From the NCBI RefSeq assembly GCF_001618955.1, contig NZ_LVYV01000023.1, forward strand, positions 1 through 64,000: a DNA stretch of 64,000 bases, written 5' to 3'. The notes under the pieces are model-generated. The model was not told the DNA's origin and searched no databases. It saw nothing but the letters and a program-made list of their open reading frames with translations. The position numbers and the translations under genes are program-made. Positions 37,885 through 47,072 of the stretch are shown piece by piece. Source of the stretch: Tardiphaga robiniae. GTDB lineage: Bacteria; Pseudomonadota; Alphaproteobacteria; Rhizobiales; Xanthobacteraceae. Each line of letters starts with the position of its first letter. The first letter of the stretch is position 1.

Positions 37885-39483
37885 TTAATCCATGCCGATC
37901 GTGGTCAGGTCCTGGAACCAGTGCTGGGCCTGCACGAACTTCTTCACCTTCGGCGACAACGCATGCGGGTTGGTGTCGTGAACGACCCAGACCAGCACCG
38001 CATCGTCGACGATCTGCGCATGGGCTTCGGCGAGCAACTCGTCCTGCTTCTTGGGGTCGAAGGTGTTCTTGGCTTCGTCGATCAGCGCGTCGACCTTCGG
38101 GTTCTTGTAGCCGCCCCAGTTCACGCCGACCGGAGCGATCTGGCCGGAGTGGAAGAAGCGGACGATGGCGTAAAGAGGATCCGAGGTGACGTAAGCGATG
38201 TTGTTGGACGTGATGCCCTTCATGCTGTCGTCGGCCGCGCCCTTGCGCCATGCGGTGTAGAGAACTTCGAGCTCGACGACCTTGAACTCGACCTCGACGC
38301 CGATTTCCTTGAAGCTCTGCTGCAGGAATTCGTTGATCGGCAGCGACAGCATCTGGCCGGTGCCGCCATTGGCGATGATGAAGGTCGCCTTCAGCGGCTT
38401 GTCCGGGCCGTAGCCCGCTTCCTTCACTAGCTTCTTGGCTTCGGCAAGATCATACTTGATCTTGAAAGTCGGCTTGCCGAACCATGGGCTCGACGGATCG
38501 ACCTGGCCAATGGCGGGCTTGGCGAGGCCGTTCATCAGGGCGACGACAGCATCGCGATCAATGGCGAGGTTGAGTGCCTTGCGCAGGCGGACGTCGGTCC
38601 AGGGCGAACCCGGCAGCACGCTGAGATGATAATTCCAGACATGCGGCGTGACGTTGTCGACGATCTTCATGCCGGCGCCCTTGAGCTGCGGCACAGCATC
38701 GGGGGCGGGGGTCTCGATCAGATCGACCTGTCCGGCGAGCAATGCATTGGTGCGAGTGAGGGCTTCCGGCATCGGGACGAGCACGAGCTTGTCGGCTTTG
38801 GGAATGCGCTTCTTGTCCCAGTAATCCGGATTCTTGCTGAGTTCGGCGAGTTCGCGCGGCACCAGCTTGGTCAGCTTGAACGGGCCGGTGCCCGATGGCT
38901 GTGACGCGAACTTGTCCCAGTCCTTGCCGACCTTCTCATACTGCGCCGGGCTGGAGACCAGGAACCAGAGCATCTGATAAGGGAAGAAGGAGTCGACGTT
39001 CTTGGTGGTGATCTCGACGGTGCCGTCGTCGATCTTGGCGTAGCTCGCGACCGAGGGCAGGCGGGTCTTGACCTGCGCGCTCTGGCGCTTGTCGAATTGC
39101 GGCGCCTTCTCGTTCAGCACCTTGTCGAGATTCCAGATCACCGCATCGGCGTTGAAGTCGCTGCCATCATGAAATTTCACGCCCTTGCGCAAGGTGAAGC
39201 GCCACTTGGTCTTGTCGGTGTCGTCGACTTTCCATTCGGTGGCGAGGCCGGGAATGAGTTTGCCCGGACGATCGGCGACATCCATTTCCCAGGCGACGAG
39301 CGGATCGTAGATCGTGTAGCCGGTGAACTGGTAGCCGCCGGCGCCGCGATCGGGCTGACCCGTGGTCAGCGGCACGTCCGCCATCGAGATGCCATAGCGC
39401 ACGACCGTTTCGGCTTGCGCCGGCGCGGCTGCGCTTATGACGGCGGCGATGGCCGCAACAAATAACGAGCTTCGAACGCGCAT
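37885..39483 (-). CDS. Dipeptide/amide-type ABC solute-binding protein (paralog 1)
   Basis: A 532-residue periplasmic SBP_bac_5 protein. A signal peptide (MRVRSSLFVAAIAAVISAAAPAQA) precedes a large bilobal domain with the family's FTLRKGVKFHDGSDFNADAVIWN and RLRKALNLAIDRDAVV. It is clearly paralogous to the divergent gene at 39718: both have the GMTAADIP/GISMADVP start, the TGY/GNTMYD.L..W region, ETPAPDAV or EAPAPDAV, NEFLQQ and HALSPKVKKFVQ. It ends in a strong terminator and has no transporter genes of its own downstream, so it probably shares the rightward permease. Confidence 0.92.
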   Translation of the reverse strand: MRVRSSLFVAAIAAVISAAAPAQAETVVRYGISMADVPLTTGQPDRGAGGYQFTGYTIYDPLVAWEMDVADRPGKLIPGLATEWKVDDTDKTKWRFTLRKGVKFHDGSDFNADAVIWNLDKVLNEKAPQFDKRQSAQVKTRLPSVASYAKIDDGTVEITTKNVDSFFPYQMLWFLVSSPAQYEKVGKDWDKFASQPSGTGPFKLTKLVPRELAELSKNPDYWDKKRIPKADKLVLVPMPEALTRTNALLAGQVDLIETPAPDAVPQLKGAGMKIVDNVTPHVWNYHLSVLPGSPWTDVRLRKALNLAIDRDAVVALMNGLAKPAIGQVDPSSPWFGKPTFKIKYDLAEAKKLVKEAGYGPDKPLKATFIIANGGTGQMLSLPINEFLQQSFKEIGVEVEFKVVELEVLYTAWRKGAADDSMKGITSNNIAYVTSDPLYAIVRFFHSGQIAPVGVNWGGYKNPKVDALIDEAKNTFDPKKQDELLAEAHAQIVDDAVLVWVVHDTNPHALSPKVKKFVQAQHWFQDLTTIGMD

Positions 39484-39623
39484 AAACCAGACTCCGTATG
39501 GTGGGATATTGTCCGCCAGATACCTGCAATCCTGATGCCAGATTGGGCATATCGAACGGTTGGTGTGTGCTGGTGTGCTGCAGTGCCGCAGTTTGAGTCA
39601 TTGCGGTGCAAGGTTGCAGGCCT

Positions 39624-39639
39624 TGGCACAAGCGTTGCA
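39624..39639 (+). promoter_or_regulatory. Sigma-54 (RpoN) promoter
   Basis: TGGCACAAGCGTTGCA at 39624-39639 matches the consensus TGGCAC-N5-TTGCW. The GG (39625-39626) and GC (39637-39638) are exactly ten bases apart. It points to the solute-binding protein start at 39718 (78 bases downstream). A partial inverted repeat with TGCCGCA and TGCGGTGCA (about 39582-39610) lies upstream and could bind an enhancer protein such as NtrC. Confidence 0.8.
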
Positions 39640-39717
39640 TAAGAATTAGCCAGTTTAGAACAAGCCAACACTGGCGGAAGCCAACGTGTCATCCAAAGCC
39701 AAGAGGGACTGATTACG

Positions 39718-41385
39718 ATGCGTATCGAAAAGCCGACAAAGAGCCGTCTCGCGACAGCAATCACCTTGCTGACGCTCGCCACGGCCCTGACCTTGCCACA
39801 GGTGGCGCGCGCCGAAACGGTGCTGCGCATCGGCATGACCGCTGCCGATATTCCGCGCACGCTCGGCCAGCCCGATCAGGGCTTCGAAGGCAATCGTTTC
39901 ACTGGCAACACGATGTATGACGGCCTGACCGGCTGGGATCTGTCGTCGGCGACCAAAGCGAGCGTTGTCATTCCCGCGCTCGCCACCGAGTGGGCAGTGG
40001 ACGACGCTGACAAGAAGAAATGGACCTTCAAACTGCGTCCCGGCGTCACTTTCCACGACGGTTCGGCCTTCAATGCGGATGCCGTGGTCTGGAATGTGGA
40101 CAAGGTGCTCAAACAAGATGCAGTCCAGTTCGATGCCAGCCAGGTCGGTGTGACCGCCTCGCGCATGCCGACCCTGGTGTCGGCGAAGAAGATCGACGAC
40201 ATGACCGTCGAACTGACCACGAAGGAGCCGGACTCCTTCCTGCCGATCAATCTCACCAACCTCTTTATGGCGAGCCCCACCAAGTGGCAGGCGCTGTTCG
40301 ACAAGGCCGAAGGCGCCGATGCCAAGGCCAAGTCGCAGGCTGCATGGGCGGCCTTCGCGCGCGAAGCCTCCGGCACCGGCCCGTGGAAGATGTCGAAGTT
40401 CACGCCGCGCGAGCGTCTCGAACTGGTGAAGAACGACGCCTACTGGAACAAGGACCGCGTTCCGAAGACCGACAAGATGGTGTTGCTGCCAATGCCGGAA
40501 GCCAATGCCCGTACTGCGGCACTGCTGTCCGGTCAGGTCGACTGGGTCGAGGCACCGGCGCCTGACGCCGTCAAGGAAATCACCGCACGCGGCTTCAAGA
40601 TCGAGAAGAACGAGCAGCCTCATGTCTGGCCGTGGCAGTTCTCGCGCGTCGAAGGCTCGCCGTGGAACGATATCCGCGTCCGCAAGGCTGCCAATCTCTG
40701 CATCGATCGCGAAGGTCTGAAGGACGGTCTGCTCGCCGGCCTGATGGTGCCGGCGACCGGCACCTTCGAGCCCGGCCACCCCTGGCGCGGCAAGCCGACT
40801 TTCGAGATCAAGTATGATCTGAAGGCCGCGCAAGCGTTGATGAAGGAAGCCGGTTACGGTCCCACCAAGAAGCTCGAAGTGAAGACGCAGACCTCGGCGT
40901 CCGGCTCCGGTCAGATGCTGCCGCTGCCGATGAACGAATATCTGCAGCAGGCGCTGGCGGAGTGCTACTTCGACGTCAAGCTCGACGTCATCGAATGGAA
41001 TACGCTGTTCACCAACTGGCGCCGCGGCGTCAAGGATCCCTCGGCGAATGGCTCCAACTCCACCAACGTCACCTATGCGGCGATGGATCCGTTCTTCGCG
41101 CTGGTGCGCTTCCTGCAGTCGTCGATGGCGCCGCCGGTCTCGAACAACTGGGGCTTCATCAACAATCCGAAGTTCGATGAACTCGTGACCAAGGCACGCA
41201 CCACCTTCGATGCGACGGCACGTGATGCGGCTCTGGCCGAGCTTCACGCGGCTTCGGTCGACGACGCAGCCTTCCTCTACGTGGCCCATGACGTCGGCCC
41301 GCGTGCGCTGAGCCCGAAGATCAAGGGCTTCGTGCAGCCGAAGAGCTGGTTCGTCGACTTCTCGCCGGTGTCGATCACGCCGTAA
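39718..41385 (+). CDS. Dipeptide/amide-type ABC solute-binding protein (paralog 2)
   Basis: A 555-residue periplasmic SBP_bac_5 protein with a signal peptide of about 32 residues (RLATAITLLTLATALTLPQVARA). It has KWTFKLRPGVTFHDGSAFNADAVVWN, ASGTGPW and RKAANLCIDREGL, as in the paralog at 37885. It is the first gene of the rightward operon under the sigma-54 promoter and is followed by a hairpin at 41393-41429, then permease and ATPase genes. It likely binds a small nitrogenous ligand delivered to the permease at 41561-43421. The ligand is unknown. Confidence 0.92.
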   Translation: MRIEKPTKSRLATAITLLTLATALTLPQVARAETVLRIGMTAADIPRTLGQPDQGFEGNRFTGNTMYDGLTGWDLSSATKASVVIPALATEWAVDDADKKKWTFKLRPGVTFHDGSAFNADAVVWNVDKVLKQDAVQFDASQVGVTASRMPTLVSAKKIDDMTVELTTKEPDSFLPINLTNLFMASPTKWQALFDKAEGADAKAKSQAAWAAFAREASGTGPWKMSKFTPRERLELVKNDAYWNKDRVPKTDKMVLLPMPEANARTAALLSGQVDWVEAPAPDAVKEITARGFKIEKNEQPHVWPWQFSRVEGSPWNDIRVRKAANLCIDREGLKDGLLAGLMVPATGTFEPGHPWRGKPTFEIKYDLKAAQALMKEAGYGPTKKLEVKTQTSASGSGQMLPLPMNEYLQQALAECYFDVKLDVIEWNTLFTNWRRGVKDPSANGSNSTNVTYAAMDPFFALVRFLQSSMAPPVSNNWGFINNPKFDELVTKARTTFDATARDAALAELHAASVDDAAFLYVAHDVGPRALSPKIKGFVQPKSWFVDFSPVSITP

Positions 41386-41392
41386 GCAACAA

Positions 41393-41429
41393 GTGAATAT
41401 CGGCCGCACATTGTGCAGCCGATATTCAC
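41393..41429 (+). promoter_or_regulatory. Operon-internal stem-loop
   Basis: GTGAATATCGGC (41393-41404) and GCCGATATTCAC (41418-41429) are perfect reverse complements of 12 bases, and GCAC/GTGC continue the stem inside. No T-run follows. A stem between a binding-protein gene and its permeases typically protects the 3' end of the first message, so more binding protein than permease is made. Confidence 0.7.
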
Positions 41430-41442
41430 ACGAACCTCTCCA

Positions 41443-41524
41443 CGTCATGGCCGGGCTTGACCCGGCCATCCACGCCTTCTTCGCTGCAAAGACGTGGATG
41501 CCCGGGTCAAGCCCGGGCATGACG
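41443..41524. repeat. Large imperfect inverted repeat (REP-like)
   Basis: Arms 41443-41474 and 41493-41524, each 32 bases, are reverse complements at 30 positions. The arms read CGTCATGGCCGGGCTTGACC... and ...GGTCAAGCCCGGGCATGACG. It is a second dispersed palindrome type, different from the GGATTCCGGG type, situated between the binding protein and the permease. Confidence 0.75.
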
Positions 41525-41560
41525 AACGAGGGGGCAGAGTTTCTGAACCGAAGGTGATCA

Positions 41561-42514
41561 GTGTTCGTCTACATCGCGCGACGCGTCGTCTATGTGATTC
41601 CTATCGTCCTAAGCGTGGCGCTGGTGTGTTTCCTGCTGGTGCACATCACGCCCGGCGATCCTCTCGTTGCCATTCTTCCCGCTGACGCATCGCAGGAGCT
41701 GGCGCAGCAACTGCGCGTCGCTTACGGCTTCGATCGTCCGCTGCCGGTGCAGTTCGGCCTGTGGCTGTGGCGCGCGCTACACGGCGATCTCGGCGCGTCG
41801 ATCGCCACCGGACGTCCCGTTCTGGCTGAAGTGTTGAAGGCGGTCGGTAACACCGTGACGCTGGCCATCGCGGCGGCCGCCATCGGTTTCACGCTCGGTT
41901 TGTTCTTCGGCCTGATCGCCGGCTACTTCCGTGATACCTGGGTCGACAAGGTTGCGACCTCGATCGCCATCGCCGGCGTCTCCGTGCCGCATTACTGGCT
42001 CGGCATGGTGCTGGTCATCATTTTCTCGGTACAGCTCAACTGGCTGCCTGCGGTCGGCGCTGGGCCGGGCGGTTCTGGCTCGTGGGCCTGGGACTGGGAA
42101 CACATCAAATATCTCGTGCTGCCGGCGATTACGACCTCGGTCATTCCGATGGGCATCGTGACCCGCACGGTACGTGCGCTCACCGGCGATATCCTGTCGC
42201 AGGATTTCGTCGAAGCGCTGCGCGCCAAAGGCCTGCAGGAAACCAAGGTGTTTCGTCACGTCATCAAGAATGCGGCGCCGACGGCGCTGGCGGTGATGGG
42301 CCTGCAGCTCGGCTATATGCTCGGCGGTTCGATCCTGATCGAAACCGTGTTCTCGTGGCCCGGCTCGGGGCTTCTTTTGAACTCCGCGATCTTCCAGCGC
42401 GACCTGCCGCTGCTGCAGGGCACGATCCTGGTGCTGGCGCTGTTCTTCGTGTTCCTCAATCTTCTGGTCGATATCGCGCAGGCGTCGATCGATCCGCGCA
42501 TCAAGCGGAGCTGA
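41561..42514 (+). CDS. Dipeptide-type ABC permease, DppB-like
   Basis: A 317-residue inner-membrane permease with about six membrane segments. It begins FVYIARRVVYVIPIVLSVALVCFLLVHITPGDP, the DppB/OppB N-terminus, and contains the cytoplasmic EAA loop EALRAKGLQETKVFRHVIKNA that contacts the ATPases. The start is GTG at 41561, after GAAGGTGA. It lies after the hairpin and repeat following the binding protein and before the DppC-like gene. The substrate is that of the binding protein, unknown. Confidence 0.92.
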   Translation: MFVYIARRVVYVIPIVLSVALVCFLLVHITPGDPLVAILPADASQELAQQLRVAYGFDRPLPVQFGLWLWRALHGDLGASIATGRPVLAEVLKAVGNTVTLAIAAAAIGFTLGLFFGLIAGYFRDTWVDKVATSIAIAGVSVPHYWLGMVLVIIFSVQLNWLPAVGAGPGGSGSWAWDWEHIKYLVLPAITTSVIPMGIVTRTVRALTGDILSQDFVEALRAKGLQETKVFRHVIKNAAPTALAVMGLQLGYMLGGSILIETVFSWPGSGLLLNSAIFQRDLPLLQGTILVLALFFVFLNLLVDIAQASIDPRIKRS

Positions 42515-42516
42515 CC

Positions 42517-42537
42517 ATGCTGGATATCCTCTCATGA
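42517..42537 (+). other. Six-codon open frame overlapping the next start
   Basis: ATG CTG GAT ATC CTC TCA TGA lies between the stop of the DppB-like gene and the start of the DppC-like gene. Its TGA overlaps the next ATG (ATGA at 42534-42537). It may be chance, or it could couple translation to the permease start. No ribosome site is clear. Confidence 0.3.
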
Positions 42538-43421
42538 CCACGATGACCGACACCGCATTGCAGGCGGCGCCTGCCACCAAGGCCCGCGGCTATTGGGCCA
42601 CGGTCGGCCGCCGCATCGTGCGCGACAAGGTCAGCATGGCCTGCGCGTTCATTCTGCTGCTGATCTTCCTGGCGGCGATCTTTGCGCCCTATCTGCATCT
42701 CGCAGATCCCTATCAGGGCTCGATGATCCGCCGTTTGCGTTTCATCGGCACACCCAATTATCCGCTCGGCACCGACGAACTCGGCCGCGATATGCTGGCG
42801 CGCCTGATCTATGGCGGGCGACTGTCGCTGCTGATCGGCATCCTGCCGGTGATCCTTGCCTTCTTCATCGGGACGGGGCTTGGCGTTGTGGCCGGCTATG
42901 TCGGCGGGAAGCTCAATACCGCAATCATGCGTACCGTCGACGTGTTCTACGCGTTCCCGTCGGTATTGCTGGCCATTGCGATTTCCGGCGCGCTGGGTGC
43001 AGGCATTCTGAACTCGATTGTGTCGTTGACGATCGTCTTCGTGCCGCAGATCACGCGCGTCGCCGAGAGCGTCACGACCGGCGTGCGCAACATGGACTAT
43101 GTGGAAGCCGCGCGTGCCTCCGGCGCGAACGCCTTCACCATCATGCGGGTGCACATGCTCGGCAACGTGCTGGGCTCCATCTTCGTCTACGCGACAGGGC
43201 TGATCTCGGTGTCGATGATCCTCGCCGCCGGTCTGTCGTTTCTCGGCCTCGGCACCAAGCCGCCGGAGCCGGAATGGGGCCTGATGCTGAACACGCTGCG
43301 TACCGCGATCTATGTCAATCCGTGGGTGGCAGCACTCCCTGGTGCGATGATCTTCGCGGTGTCGATCTGTTTCAATCTGCTGAGCGACGGCATGCGCAGT
43401 GCCATGGATATCCGGAACTGA
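42534..43421 (+). CDS. Dipeptide-type ABC permease, DppC-like
   Basis: A 295-residue permease partner. The N-terminal segment holds the RIVRDKVSMACAFILLLIFLAAIFAPYL membrane helix and the LGTDELGRDMLARLIYGGR motif typical of DppC/OppC, then the EAA loop VEAARASGANAFTIMRVHMLGN. It forms a heterodimer with the DppB-like protein. The start ATG at 42534 is just 19 bases after the DppB stop. The next gene starts five bases after its stop. Confidence 0.92.
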   Translation: MTTMTDTALQAAPATKARGYWATVGRRIVRDKVSMACAFILLLIFLAAIFAPYLHLADPYQGSMIRRLRFIGTPNYPLGTDELGRDMLARLIYGGRLSLLIGILPVILAFFIGTGLGVVAGYVGGKLNTAIMRTVDVFYAFPSVLLAIAISGALGAGILNSIVSLTIVFVPQITRVAESVTTGVRNMDYVEAARASGANAFTIMRVHMLGNVLGSIFVYATGLISVSMILAAGLSFLGLGTKPPEPEWGLMLNTLRTAIYVNPWVAALPGAMIFAVSICFNLLSDGMRSAMDIRN

Positions 43422-43425
43422 TGGC

Positions 43426-44487
43426 ATGAGTGATATTGTAGAAGAAATCGACAAGTTGGAGCCGCTGGAAGACATCGGCGGTGTTGCACAGCCGCTGTTG
43501 CAGGTGATCAGCCTGACCAAGCACTTCCCGGTGCGCGGCGGATTGTTCGCGCCGAGCAAGACCGTACGCGCCGTGGACGATGTGTCCTTCGCCATCGCCA
43601 AGGGCGAAACCGTCGGCATCGTTGGCGAGTCCGGCTGCGGCAAGTCGACGACGGCGCGGCTGCTGATGCATCTGATGCCGCGCAACTCGGGCGACATCAT
43701 CTATGATGGCCGCACTGTCGGGCGCGAACTCTCGTTGCGCGAGCTGCGCCGCGGCATGCAGATGGTGTTTCAGGACAGCTATGCCTCGCTCAATCCGCGC
43801 CTGACCATCGAGGAATCGATCGCCTTTGGGCCGAAGGTCCACGGCATGGCAGACAAAGCCGCACGGCTGCTGGCACGTGAGCTGCTCGGCAAGGTCGGCT
43901 TGCGGCCTGAAACCTTTGCCAATCGCTATCCGCATGAAGTCTCCGGCGGCCAGCGTCAGCGCGTCAACATCGCGCGTGCGCTGGCGCTATCGCCGCGTCT
44001 CGTCATTCTCGACGAGGCGGTCTCGGCGCTCGACAAGTCGGTCGAGGCGCAGGTGCTCAACCTGCTGGTCGATCTCAAGCGCGAATTCGGCCTGACCTAT
44101 CTGTTCATCAGCCACGATCTCAACGTGGTGCGTTACATCTCCGACCGCGTGCTGGTGATGTATCTCGGCGAGGTCGTTGAACTCGGCCCGGTGGACGAGG
44201 TCTGGGACGGGCCGGCGCATCCCTATACGCGCGCATTGCTCGCCGCGATGCCGTCATCCGATCCCGACAAGCGCACGGAAACGCCGCCGATCACCGGTGA
44301 TCCGCCGAATCCGATCGATCCACCGTCCGGTTGTCGCTTCCACACACGCTGCCCGTTCGCGGAAGCGATGTGCGGCGAGGCGACGCCGAAACTGACTGAA
44401 ATCACGGTGACTGGCCATCAGGCTGCCTGTTACATGGCGATCCCGGGTTCGGGACACAGCAAAGCACCTGCCGCAGGAGTGCACTGA
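43426..44487 (+). CDS. Dipeptide-type ABC transporter ATPase (DppF-like)
   Basis: A 353-residue ATPase. Walker A GESGCGKST near residues 65-73, the Q-loop FQDSYASLNPR, signature VSGGQRQR, Walker B LVILDEAVSALD, and the family's C-terminal oligopeptide extension with the Cys-containing GCRFHTRCPFAEAMCG near 300-315, a probable metal-cluster region. The DEA in place of DEP in Walker B is seen in other members. ATG 43426 is used; the longer frame overlaps the permease. It follows DppC and is separated from the second ATPase by the AtzG-like and amidase genes. Confidence 0.9.
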   Translation: MSDIVEEIDKLEPLEDIGGVAQPLLQVISLTKHFPVRGGLFAPSKTVRAVDDVSFAIAKGETVGIVGESGCGKSTTARLLMHLMPRNSGDIIYDGRTVGRELSLRELRRGMQMVFQDSYASLNPRLTIEESIAFGPKVHGMADKAARLLARELLGKVGLRPETFANRYPHEVSGGQRQRVNIARALALSPRLVILDEAVSALDKSVEAQVLNLLVDLKREFGLTYLFISHDLNVVRYISDRVLVMYLGEVVELGPVDEVWDGPAHPYTRALLAAMPSSDPDKRTETPPITGDPPNPIDPPSGCRFHTRCPFAEAMCGEATPKLTEITVTGHQAACYMAIPGSGHSKAPAAGVH

Positions 44488-44488
44488 C

Positions 44489-44686
44489 ATGACCAAACCG
44501 ACTGCCAGGCAGATCAAGGCGCTGACCGAAGTCAGCGGCCTTCCCGCATCCGACGAGGTTGCCGAGCGCATCGCCAATTCGATTGGTCCTGCTTTTGAAG
44601 GCTTCGCTGCCGTAGCGGGCACCTTGCCGTTCGATCTCGAGCCCGCAACCTTCCTCGCTGTTCAGAATACGAAGGTTGCCAAATGA
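44489..44686 (+). CDS. GatC/AtzG-like small subunit (DUF4089-type)
   Basis: A 65-residue protein resembling DUF4089, the family of AtzG, the small partner of 1-carboxybiuret hydrolase AtzE. It has the helical first half ARQIKALTEVSGLPASDEVAERIANSIGPAFEGF and the conserved-looking PFDLEPATFLA stretch. AGGAG is eight bases before its ATG, and its stop overlaps the amidase start by four bases (ATGA). In AtzE/AtzG and GatA/GatC complexes, the small protein wraps around the amidase and stabilises it, so a hetero-complex is predicted. The DUF assignment is from memory of the family, not a search. Confidence 0.75.
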   Translation: MTKPTARQIKALTEVSGLPASDEVAERIANSIGPAFEGFAAVAGTLPFDLEPATFLAVQNTKVAK

Positions 44687-46098
44687 GCGTCACCGAACCC
44701 GCATTGCTGTCGCTGACGGAAGTCGCCGACGCTATCGCCACGAAGAAGATTTCGTCGCGCGACGCCACGCAGTCGTGCCTCGATCGCGCCGTGAAATCGC
44801 AGCCGAGTCTCAACGCCTATATGTCGATCGAGGCCGATGCAGCGCTGACGGCGGCGGACGCGGCCGATGCCGCGCTCGCCAAGGGGCAGAGCCGTGGCGT
44901 GCTGCATGGCGTACCGCTGGCGCACAAGGACATGTATTACGACGAAGGGCACGTCGTGACCTGCGGCTCGCATATTCGCCGCAACTGGGTTGCGACTACC
45001 ACGGCGACATCGCTGCAGCGCCTGAAAGACGCTGGTACCGTGCGGCTCGGTTCGCTGCAGATGGTCGAATTCGCCTACGGTCCGCTCGGTCATAACGTGC
45101 ATTACGGCGCCGTGCATAACCCGTGGCATGTCGATCACGTCACCGGCGGGTCATCGTCGGGTTCTGGCTCCGCTGTGGCGGCGCGTCTCACATTTGCGGC
45201 GCTGGGCTCCGACACCGGCGGATCGATCCGGCTGCCGGCGCATTTCTGCGGCGTCTCCGGTTTGAAAACGACCGTCGGTCTGGTCAGTCGCGCCGGCGCG
45301 ATGCCGTTGTCGCAATCGCTTGATACGGTCGGCCCGCTGGCGCGTACCGTGGAAGATTGCGCGCTCGTGACCGGCCTGATGGCCGGCGCCGATCCGCTCG
45401 ATCCGACCACAAGCATGCGCCCTGTGCCGGACTACATGGCGGCGACGCGTGCGTCTGCCAAAGGCATGACCGTCGGCATTCCCAAGGCGTTCTATGTCGA
45501 CGATCTCGACGCCGACACGGCTGCCATTCTGCAGAATACCATTGCGACGCTAAAGGATGAAGGCATCAAGATCGTTGAAGTCGATCTGCCCAATCAGGGC
45601 CAGCTCACGGCGGCGTGCCAGTTCGTACTCGCGACGGAAGCCGCGGCGATGCACAAGCGCTGGATGATCGAGCGCCCGCAGGATTACGGTGCGCAGGTGC
45701 TGATGCGGCTGCAAAACGGCCTCGCCATCACCGGCGTGTCCTATATCGAGGCGCTGCGCTGGCGTGGTCCGGCGCTGGCGGCCTATCTCGCCGCCGTGAC
45801 CGGCACTGATGCCGTGCTCGCTCCGGTCTCGCCCGGGGCAGCTCCGACCATTGCCGAGACCGATGTCGGCAACAGCTCGGGCGCCGAAGCGATGATCCAG
45901 CGGCTGACGCGCTTTACGCGTCCGATCAACTATCTCGGTCTGCCCGGTCTCTCGATCCCGGCCGGCTTCACCAAGGCGAAGCTCCCGGTGGGCATGCAAC
46001 TGATCGGTCGGCCGTTCGATGAATCGACGCTGCTGACCGTCGGTGCCGCATTCCAGCGCGCCACGGACTTCCACAAGCAGTGTCCGGAGTTGGCATGA
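44683..46098 (+). CDS. Amidase (amidase-signature family, AtzE/GatA-like)
   Basis: A 471-residue amidase with the Ser-cis-Ser-Lys triad. Lys82 is in GVPLAHKDM, the cis-Ser is in the TGGSSSGSGSAVAA stretch (residues 154-167; Ser157 by spacing) and nucleophile Ser181 ends SDTGGS. It hydrolyses a C-N amide bond. Its position between two ATPase genes, with an AtzG-like protein translationally coupled upstream and an overlap of four bases with the next ATPase, indicates that it acts on the transported compound. The exact substrate is unknown; aryl amides, ureides or biuret-like compounds are possible. Confidence 0.93.
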   Translation: MSVTEPALLSLTEVADAIATKKISSRDATQSCLDRAVKSQPSLNAYMSIEADAALTAADAADAALAKGQSRGVLHGVPLAHKDMYYDEGHVVTCGSHIRRNWVATTTATSLQRLKDAGTVRLGSLQMVEFAYGPLGHNVHYGAVHNPWHVDHVTGGSSSGSGSAVAARLTFAALGSDTGGSIRLPAHFCGVSGLKTTVGLVSRAGAMPLSQSLDTVGPLARTVEDCALVTGLMAGADPLDPTTSMRPVPDYMAATRASAKGMTVGIPKAFYVDDLDADTAAILQNTIATLKDEGIKIVEVDLPNQGQLTAACQFVLATEAAAMHKRWMIERPQDYGAQVLMRLQNGLAITGVSYIEALRWRGPALAAYLAAVTGTDAVLAPVSPGAAPTIAETDVGNSSGAEAMIQRLTRFTRPINYLGLPGLSIPAGFTKAKLPVGMQLIGRPFDESTLLTVGAAFQRATDFHKQCPELA

Positions 46099-47072
46099 GT
46101 AATCTCGTCGAGGTTCGCAATCTCAACGTCCGGTTCGGCGGCGAACGCACCGTCTATGCGGTGAACGATCTCAATCTCACGCTCGGCGAGGGCGAAGTGC
46201 TCGGTCTCCTCGGCGAGTCCGGGTCGGGCAAGAGCGTCACCTTGCGTGCACTGATGCGATTGCTGCCGAAGAAGCGCACGCAGATCAACGGCACGGTGAA
46301 CGTGCTCGGCAAGGATGTGTTGGTGCTCGACGATGACGAACTCTCGGCATTTCGCGGCCAGACAGTGTCGATGATCTTCCAGGAGCCGGCGCTGGCGCTG
46401 GACCCCGTCTATACGATCGGCCAGCAGATTGCCGAAAGCGTGATGCGTCACGAGGGCAAGAGTCAGGCCGAGGGCGTGAAGCGCGCGCTCGAAATGCTCG
46501 AGGTCGTACGCATTCCCTCCGCCAAGCGTCGCCTCGATGCCTATCCGCACGAGATGTCCGGTGGCATGCGGCAGCGCGCGATGATCGCGCTGGCCTTGGC
46601 GTGCAAGCCGAAGATCCTGCTCGCGGACGAGCCGACCACCGCGCTCGATGCCACCGTGCAGATCCAGATCCTGTTGCTGCTGCGCGAGCTGCAGCGCGAG
46701 TTCGGCATGTCGATCATCTTCGTCACGCACGATATTGGCGTTGCCATCGAGATCTGCGATCGCGTCGCCGTGATGTATGCCGGCCAGATCGTCGAACAGG
46801 GCACGCTGAGCCAGATCGTCCGCTCGGCCGTGCATCCCTATCCGCAGGGGCTGTTGGCTTCCACCGTGCACGGCGCCAAGCGCGGGGCACGGCTGGAGAC
46901 CATTCCCGGTACGCCGCCGTCGCTCGACAAGCCGCCGGTGAATTGCTCCTTCGCGCCGCGCTGCAAATTCGCCCAGCCGCGTTGCGTCGAGGCGCCGCCG
47001 CCGAATGTCGAACTCGCCGACAATCGTGTGGTGCGGTGTATTTTGGCGGAGCAGGCGGCAGTGCCGGCCTGA
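46095..47072 (+). CDS. Dipeptide-type ABC transporter ATPase (DppD-like)
   Basis: A 325-residue ATPase, second of the pair. Walker A GESGSGKSVT near residues 40-49, signature MSGGMRQRAMIALALA, Walker B ILLADEPTTALD, and the C-terminal region with CSFAPRCKFAQPRCVEA. I start at the ATG at 46095, which overlaps the amidase stop (ATGA); the longer frame adds five residues. It pairs with the DppF-like protein to drive the permease. It is the last gene in the rightward operon; the convergent gene ends seven bases downstream. Confidence 0.92.
   Translation: MSNLVEVRNLNVRFGGERTVYAVNDLNLTLGEGEVLGLLGESGSGKSVTLRALMRLLPKKRTQINGTVNVLGKDVLVLDDDELSAFRGQTVSMIFQEPALALDPVYTIGQQIAESVMRHEGKSQAEGVKRALEMLEVVRIPSAKRRLDAYPHEMSGGMRQRAMIALALACKPKILLADEPTTALDATVQIQILLLLRELQREFGMSIIFVTHDIGVAIEICDRVAVMYAGQIVEQGTLSQIVRSAVHPYPQGLLASTVHGAKRGARLETIPGTPPSLDKPPVNCSFAPRCKFAQPRCVEAPPPNVELADNRVVRCILAEQAAVPA

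Follow-up and report, generated by a model that had tools for sequence, protein, structure and literature searches.

A conserved sigma-54-type operon, apparently for import and hydrolysis, lies within positions 37885-47072 of a 64,000-nucleotide stretch of the Tardiphaga robiniae genome (the window), and its 65-residue GatC-like protein and its amidase form a pair that is not AtzGE. With a probability of roughly 0.55, we read this locus as an operon under sigma-54 control that serves to take up and hydrolyse a nitrogen source of the ureide type. Ureides are the best supported class of substrate, the exact compound being unproven. An earlier annotation of the same DNA (the original prediction) had proposed a nitrogen-scavenging system for the import and hydrolysis of an amide or ureide, with an AtzE/AtzG-like complex at its core. 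A ureide-type compound was retained as the best reading, while the canonical AtzE/AtzG identity had to be given up. The seven rightward genes, i.e. binding protein, permease, permease, ATPase, small protein, amidase and ATPase, were found in the predicted order, all on the plus strand (Table 1). Both ATGA overlaps, at 44683-44686 and 46095-46098, are present and join the small protein, the amidase and ATPase 2, and the gene order supports the proposed co-transcription. Overlooked at the time was a divergent gene, with a sigma-54 site of its own, for a second binding protein that shares 50% identity with the first.

The 65-residue protein had been described as similar to GatC and AtzG, with PF13318 (DUF4089) as its expected family; the family match failed, and the similarity was confirmed. 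Neither the window's protein nor any of 31 homologues matched PF13318 at E≤1, and the single PF13318 gene of this genome sits elsewhere, outside the operon. In an alignment of 31 proteins picked out of 42 inspected loci, E51-P52 is invariant. Because the probabilities given by hhalign itself were only 42% for AtzG and 20% for GatC, decoys were run. The small-protein profile reached E values of 2.6e-4 to AtzG and 1.1e-3 to GatC, with 0 of 300 column-permuted decoys in each case, i.e. a similarity beyond chance. In the control comparison of AtzG with GatC themselves, E was 0.21 and 78 of 300 decoys were equally high. The best PDB match of the profile was GatC (2df4_C, E 0.011), and GatC and an amidase were the top rows for the predicted fold. 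The AtzG structure 6c62_C, which the AtzG profile did retrieve (5.9e-7), was found neither among the PDB sequence matches of the small-protein profile nor in the fold list. In loci outside the profile, all 40 profile matches with E<0.01 were situated within -24 to +33 nt of the start of an amidase gene, and the first match not beside an amidase had an E value of 0.016; most amidases of this clade thus have the small gene directly in front. Six distant members (L064, L066, L067, L068, L186 and L190) lacked a small-protein match at E≤1. The profile comparisons, and perhaps also the predicted fold, group the small protein with GatC and AtzG. Judged by sequence, it and the amidase are a GatC-like/amidase pair separate from AtzGE, and the two proteins would form a complex. 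No description of this pair was found in the part of the literature that was covered, and a search for DUF4089 was likewise empty.

The amidase is a member of the amidase-signature family, as indicated by its PF01425 score (Table 1) and by a Lys/Ser/Ser triad in conserved blocks. The triad was assigned to K82, S157 and S181 by alignment with GatA. Its predicted identity as AtzE did not hold. The protein scored below all 25 NCBIfam cut-offs listed, and the AtzE models (TIGR02715 and NF006631) scored best, with 322.4 bits versus a cut-off of 425.75 and 323.6 versus 461. In a tree of 109 rows calculated with a quick method, the operon clade (14 rows, support 99), AtzE proteins encoded beside PF13318 genes (18 rows, support 100) and GatA (8 rows, support 100) formed separate groups. 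Proteins shorter than 400 or longer than 560 residues, open reading frames (ORFs) with stops, duplicates, and most of L002-L025, L135, L139 and L198-L200 were omitted from this tree, and the 148 rows left were thinned to 109. Membership in AtzE/AtzG was rejected on the basis of the lacking PF13318 match, the missed AtzE cut-offs and the separate clade.

Two alignment columns bear on the substrate. Arg342 is shared by all 18 AtzE and all 8 GatA sequences and by 40 of 41 clade rows. The second column is Asp in 8 of 8 GatA and Gly in 18 of 18 AtzE sequences; it is Thr409 in the window's amidase, and Asp is found in 0 of 41 clade rows (Thr 26, Ser 10, others 5). In GatA, this Arg and this Asp bind glutamine. 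Retention of the Arg and loss of the Asp therefore suggest a substrate that carries a carboxylate but not the alpha-amino group of glutamine. The best solved relative of the amidase is GatA (4wj3, 6.4e-89), and the pair resembles GatC-GatA of the transamidosome in that a Ser-Ser-Lys amidase is combined with a GatC-like partner, the predicted fold of which is nearest to GatC. However, no GatB is encoded beside the pair, the amidase is below the gatA cut-off (309 versus 481 bits), all 41 clade rows have Thr, Ser or another residue in place of the GatA Asp, and the partner has 65 residues instead of about 95.

The predicted sigma-54 promoter with GG-N10-GC spacing upstream of the binding-protein gene was confirmed with a full consensus match (Table 1). 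The window has no other exact copy of TGGCAC-N5-TTGCW; if one mismatch is allowed, it contains 6 sites versus 2.41 expected. Genome-wide, there are 13 copies of the 12-letter pattern, compared with 4 of the reversed pattern. Among 36 loci of relatives, 32 have a site with at least 11 of 12 letters in the 200 nt upstream of the binding-protein gene. The corresponding frequencies were 78 of 7200 for random windows taken from these loci and 9 of 7200 for shuffled promoters, and thus the conserved upstream site is above chance. From this survey L176, a second copy of L048, and L038, where the contig ends inside the gene, were omitted. The four loci lacking the site (L045, L047, L048 and L050) represent a divergent branch with amidases 57-59% identical to that of the window. 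Both sigma-54 sites were found in all 25 loci that have the divergent binding-protein gene, when the minus-strand site was counted at ≥10/12. Footprinting between the two promoters showed that both sites are conserved throughout, and it revealed no further block conserved throughout. In many Bradyrhizobium-type loci (L034, L035, L040, L159, L160, L163 and others), a CACAA-N4-TTGTG-like inverted repeat lies between the two sites. This repeat, a candidate activator site, is not evident in the intergenic region of the window.

The promoter had also been called typical of nitrogen control. Its sigma-54 type stands, but the link to nitrogen turned out to be weaker. The six genes inspected beside other exact sites in the same genome encode a nitrite-reductase-like protein, an amidohydrolase, a binding protein and three others. 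As three of the six are not evidently connected with nitrogen, the site speaks for sigma-54 and less strictly for nitrogen. The gene set is probably nitrogen-controlled, and the operon would respond to nitrogen. In a published RpoN study of Bradyrhizobium sp. DOA9, the listed sites include TGGCATCAAGATTGC and TGGCATAGCCATTGC at the adjacent genes BRADOA9_v1_30300, annotated "Heme-binding protein A", and 30301, annotated "ABC transporter substrate-binding protein" (PMC13207237, Table 1). Six loci of our survey, presumably from Bradyrhizobium, carry these two 15-mers in divergent orientation at a distance of 83-84 nt. The likeness comprises the adjacency of two binding-protein genes and the identity of the published 15-mers with the sites of these six loci; in the accessible part of that paper, no function is assigned to the genes and the amidase pair is not described (PMC13207237). 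The published sites of these likely Bradyrhizobium orthologues support the putative rpoN control of the operon. The genes lowered in the DOA9 rpoN mutants include an atzE, which may or may not be this amidase (PMC13207237).

As had been anticipated, the gene order is kept elsewhere, namely in Tardiphaga, Bradyrhizobium and other genera. The amidase was found at E≤1e-120 in 35 of 397 genomes of the order. One locus (L136, genome G022) contains the pair of small protein and amidase without a transporter, and in distant relatives the pair is kept and the importer is not. No close homologue of the operon's transporter was seen at L177-L181, L185 and L190, and at L182-L184, L187 and L189 the nearby transporter genes are merely 22-64% identical. 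The latter five loci contain clusters of several different amidase genes, most of them with Opp-type transporters; no clear pathway emerged from the flanks of L182-L190. At L170, L171 and L172 the operon seems eroded, with fragments of transporter genes around the small protein and the amidase (the contig of L171 is short). Genes of relatives were called with a simple third-position GC score. Because this misplaced some genes (e.g. the lyase in L176, and large antisense ORFs), the operon genes were located by tblastn. Pfam scans of neighbours covered selected proteins.

The flanking genes give hints of the substrate class. The survey comprised 42 operon loci, two of which (L048 and L176) belong to one genome. 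The divergent binding protein is encoded at 25 loci, and 16 other genomes are without an intact second binding protein. In 12 of these 16 genomes, the operon is flanked by ureide-type enzymes, i.e. allantoate-amidohydrolase-like M20 proteins (10 genomes), hydantoin/allantoin racemases (8), ureidoglycolate lyases (5) or a PuuE allantoinase. Six genomes have the M20 gene directly 3' of ATPase 2, and in four of them the lyase gene is next. The M20 proteins of L138, L140, L141, L047, L050 and the window's own genome pass the NF006769 model "allantoate amidohydrolase" with 613-660 bits (cut-off 452). At L137, the PuuE allantoinase scored 514 bits (cut-off 425) and a second M20 protein matched NF006775 with 568 bits (cut-off 479). 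Comparison loci gave ureide-gene matches in 5 of 85 cases: two of these loci also belong to the amidase clade of the operon, two had been included on account of such genes, and one shows a weak PuuE-like match. In 61 genomes, the small protein and the M20 protein (≥66% identity) occur together in 22, the small protein alone in 2, M20 alone in 1, and neither in 36; outside the genus the numbers are 5/1/1/36 (Fisher p 3.7e-5). The Tardiphaga M20 orthologue is encoded away from the operon (contig C12 of the window's genome, 69%), beside genes for a LysR protein and a 2-hydroxyacid dehydrogenase.

Several observations weigh against a ureide as the substrate. In the window's own group, a ureide-type enzyme is encoded beside the operon in 0 of the 25 loci with a second binding protein and in 0 of 4 further Tardiphaga/Bradyrhizobium-like loci (L029, L033, L036 and L038, three of them on short contigs). 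The query proteins came from 8 of the 12 positive genomes, and only L039, L041, L046 and L141 are independent. The 66% cut for M20 was chosen after the gap down to 57% was visible. The nearest solved relatives of the genome's own M20 protein are carbamoylases, and its score with E. coli allantoate amidohydrolase is much lower. The lyases miss the NCBIfam cut-offs by a wide margin, though they pass those of Pfam, and for the racemases no NCBIfam model matched at 1e-15. Furthermore, distant amidases of the clade adjoin polyamine genes (L057), and the usual ligands of family-5 binding proteins are peptides, nickel or opines.

Under the preferred ureide reading, the divergent sigma-54 promoters would drive two binding proteins, either of which could feed the Opp-type ABC importer, and the importer would take the compound into the cell. 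Inside the cell, the GatC-like subunit would hold the amidase, which may act on a substrate or intermediate with a carboxylate and set ammonia free from its amide or ureido group. Ureidoglycolate, oxalurate and related ureido acids are candidates. In several other genera, the racemase, the M20 allantoate amidohydrolase or carbamoylase, and the ureidoglycolate lyase beside the operon could catalyze preceding and following steps.

The strongest alternative, which we nevertheless regard as unlikely, is a system for hydantoins and N-carbamoyl amino acids, in which the racemase would be a hydantoin racemase, the M20 protein an L-carbamoylase, and the amidase would open a related amide; the importer would carry hydantoins, N-carbamoyl amino acids or their amides. 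The nearest solved structures of M20 (hydantoinase/carbamoylase, N-carbamoyl-L-amino-acid hydrolase and N-carbamoyl-beta-alanine amidohydrolase) fit such a system, as does the Asp/Glu/hydantoin racemase family. However, allantoin is suggested by the PuuE allantoinase and allantoate amidohydrolase beside the operon in L137 and by the ureidoglycolate lyase, which 5 of the 12 genomes have, and the racemase of L045 also matches allantoin racemase (5lfd, 5e-47). Rather improbable is an importer for peptides or amidated peptides, with the amidase removing a terminal amide and the ureide flanks being coincidental. The importer and the binding proteins do resemble dipeptide and nickel systems, and no ureide enzyme is encoded at this locus in the window's genus, but the ureide linkage in 12 genomes, compared with 5 of 85 other loci, and the M20 co-occurrence outside the genus weigh against it.

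A canonical AtzE/AtzG complex of the 1-carboxybiuret type, as originally predicted, is very improbable. AtzE remains the best model for the amidase, and Esquirol and colleagues have described AtzG-E-H clusters that adjoin ABC transporters and, in the case of enterobacteria, also a gene for allantoate amidohydrolase (PMC6219798). However, the amidase stays under both AtzE cut-offs and is separated from the AtzE rows by a fully supported branch, the small protein is outside PF13318, no AtzH was found among the seven operon proteins scanned, and a true AtzG-E-H operon is present elsewhere in the same genome. This operon (L135, G000:C1:658000-676000) encodes importer homologues, a canonical AtzG (PF13318), an amidase and AtzH, and it has an 11/12 sigma-54 site about 49 nt upstream of its binding-protein gene. 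The window's operon would work like it but is a different branch. With AtzG-AtzE and HpxX-HpxY, the window shares a small GatC-like gene directly before that of an amidase-signature enzyme, often beside ABC transporters; it differs in the family of the small protein, the clade of the amidase, the lack of AtzH in the operon, and the flanking genes. In one article, HpxY is counted among the amidohydrolases of purine catabolism, being called oxalurate amidohydrolase in one place and oxamate carbamoyltransferase in another, and another uncharacterised GatA-like amidohydrolase is reported (PMC12625717). Least probable of all is a hydrolase for N-carbamoyl-polyamines (e.g. N-carbamoylputrescine) plus importer: amidase-type N-carbamoylputrescine hydrolases (AguY) exist (PMC12283126), and at the betaproteobacterial L057 (2508-9410) the pair lies 3' of arginine decarboxylase, saccharopine-dehydrogenase-type, Orn/DAP/Arg-decarboxylase-type and arginase-family genes, but no polyamine gene was found among the scanned neighbours of the alphaproteobacterial operon, and Tse8, an AguY descendant, matches the amidase far worse than GatA or AtzE do.

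We consider it fairly probable that the pair represents a further recruitment of GatC-GatA-type proteins outside tRNA amidation, in addition to AtzGE and HpxXY, with a hitherto unrecognised GatC-like family, an amidase clade of its own, an importer with two binding proteins, divergent sigma-54 promoters, and ureide nitrogen as the target. AtzE and AtzG have reportedly been presented as a vestige of the transamidosome. If true, a second amidase clade with GatC-like subunits of its own would mean that such pairs were recruited repeatedly for nitrogen scavenging. It would also allow the annotation of a small-protein family that is missed by Pfam and NCBIfam, and it would offer a testable ureide uptake route in Tardiphaga and Bradyrhizobium, which is of interest since allantoin and allantoate are the forms in which legume nodules move nitrogen (PMC9464200).

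Table 1. Features of the locus, in window coordinates.
Feature	Position	Strand	Evidence or remark
Second solute-binding protein (SBP_bac_5)	37885..39483	-	PF00496 264.8 bits
Divergent sigma-54-like promoter of the second binding protein, CTGGCATCAGGATTGCA	39525..39541	-	11/12 consensus letters
Sigma-54 (-24/-12) promoter of the operon, TTGGCACAAGCGTTGCA	39623..39639	+	GG-N10-GC, 12/12 consensus letters
Solute-binding protein, family 5	39718..41385	+	PF00496 243.8 bits
Gap between binding-protein gene and permease 1, two strong hairpins	41386..41560	+	Fold -102.6 kcal/mol, z -9.94
Opp/Dpp-type permease 1	41561..42514	+	PF00528, PF19300
Opp/Dpp-type permease 2	42534..43421	+	PF00528, PF12911
ABC ATPase 1	43399..44487	+	PF00005, PF08352; alternative start ATG at 43426 possible
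65-residue GatC/AtzG-like partner protein outside PF13318	44489..44686	+	Profile, fold and gene-position comparisons
Amidase-signature enzyme	44683..46098	+	PF01425 355.7 bits
ABC ATPase 2	46095..47072	+	PF00005, PF08352 (scanned from 46098)

The transporter has the composition of Opp/Dpp/Nik-type ABC importers, with a family-5 binding protein, two permeases and two ATPases with oligo_HPY tails. It differs from them by the insertion of the amidase and partner genes upstream of ATPase 2 and by the two binding proteins under divergent sigma-54 sites. One of the hairpins in the gap downstream of the binding-protein gene is formed by the inverted repeat pair 41446-41474 / 41493-41521. In relatives, the same gap contains different palindromic repeats, which would fit a hot spot for insertions or an element for the tuning of expression. 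Elsewhere in the genome, at about 9946-13002 of L200 (G000:C1:250500-270499), the genome's ureidoglycolate lyase and PuuE-like genes adjoin genes for a family-3 binding protein and a permease, and this group is possibly a second ureide importer.

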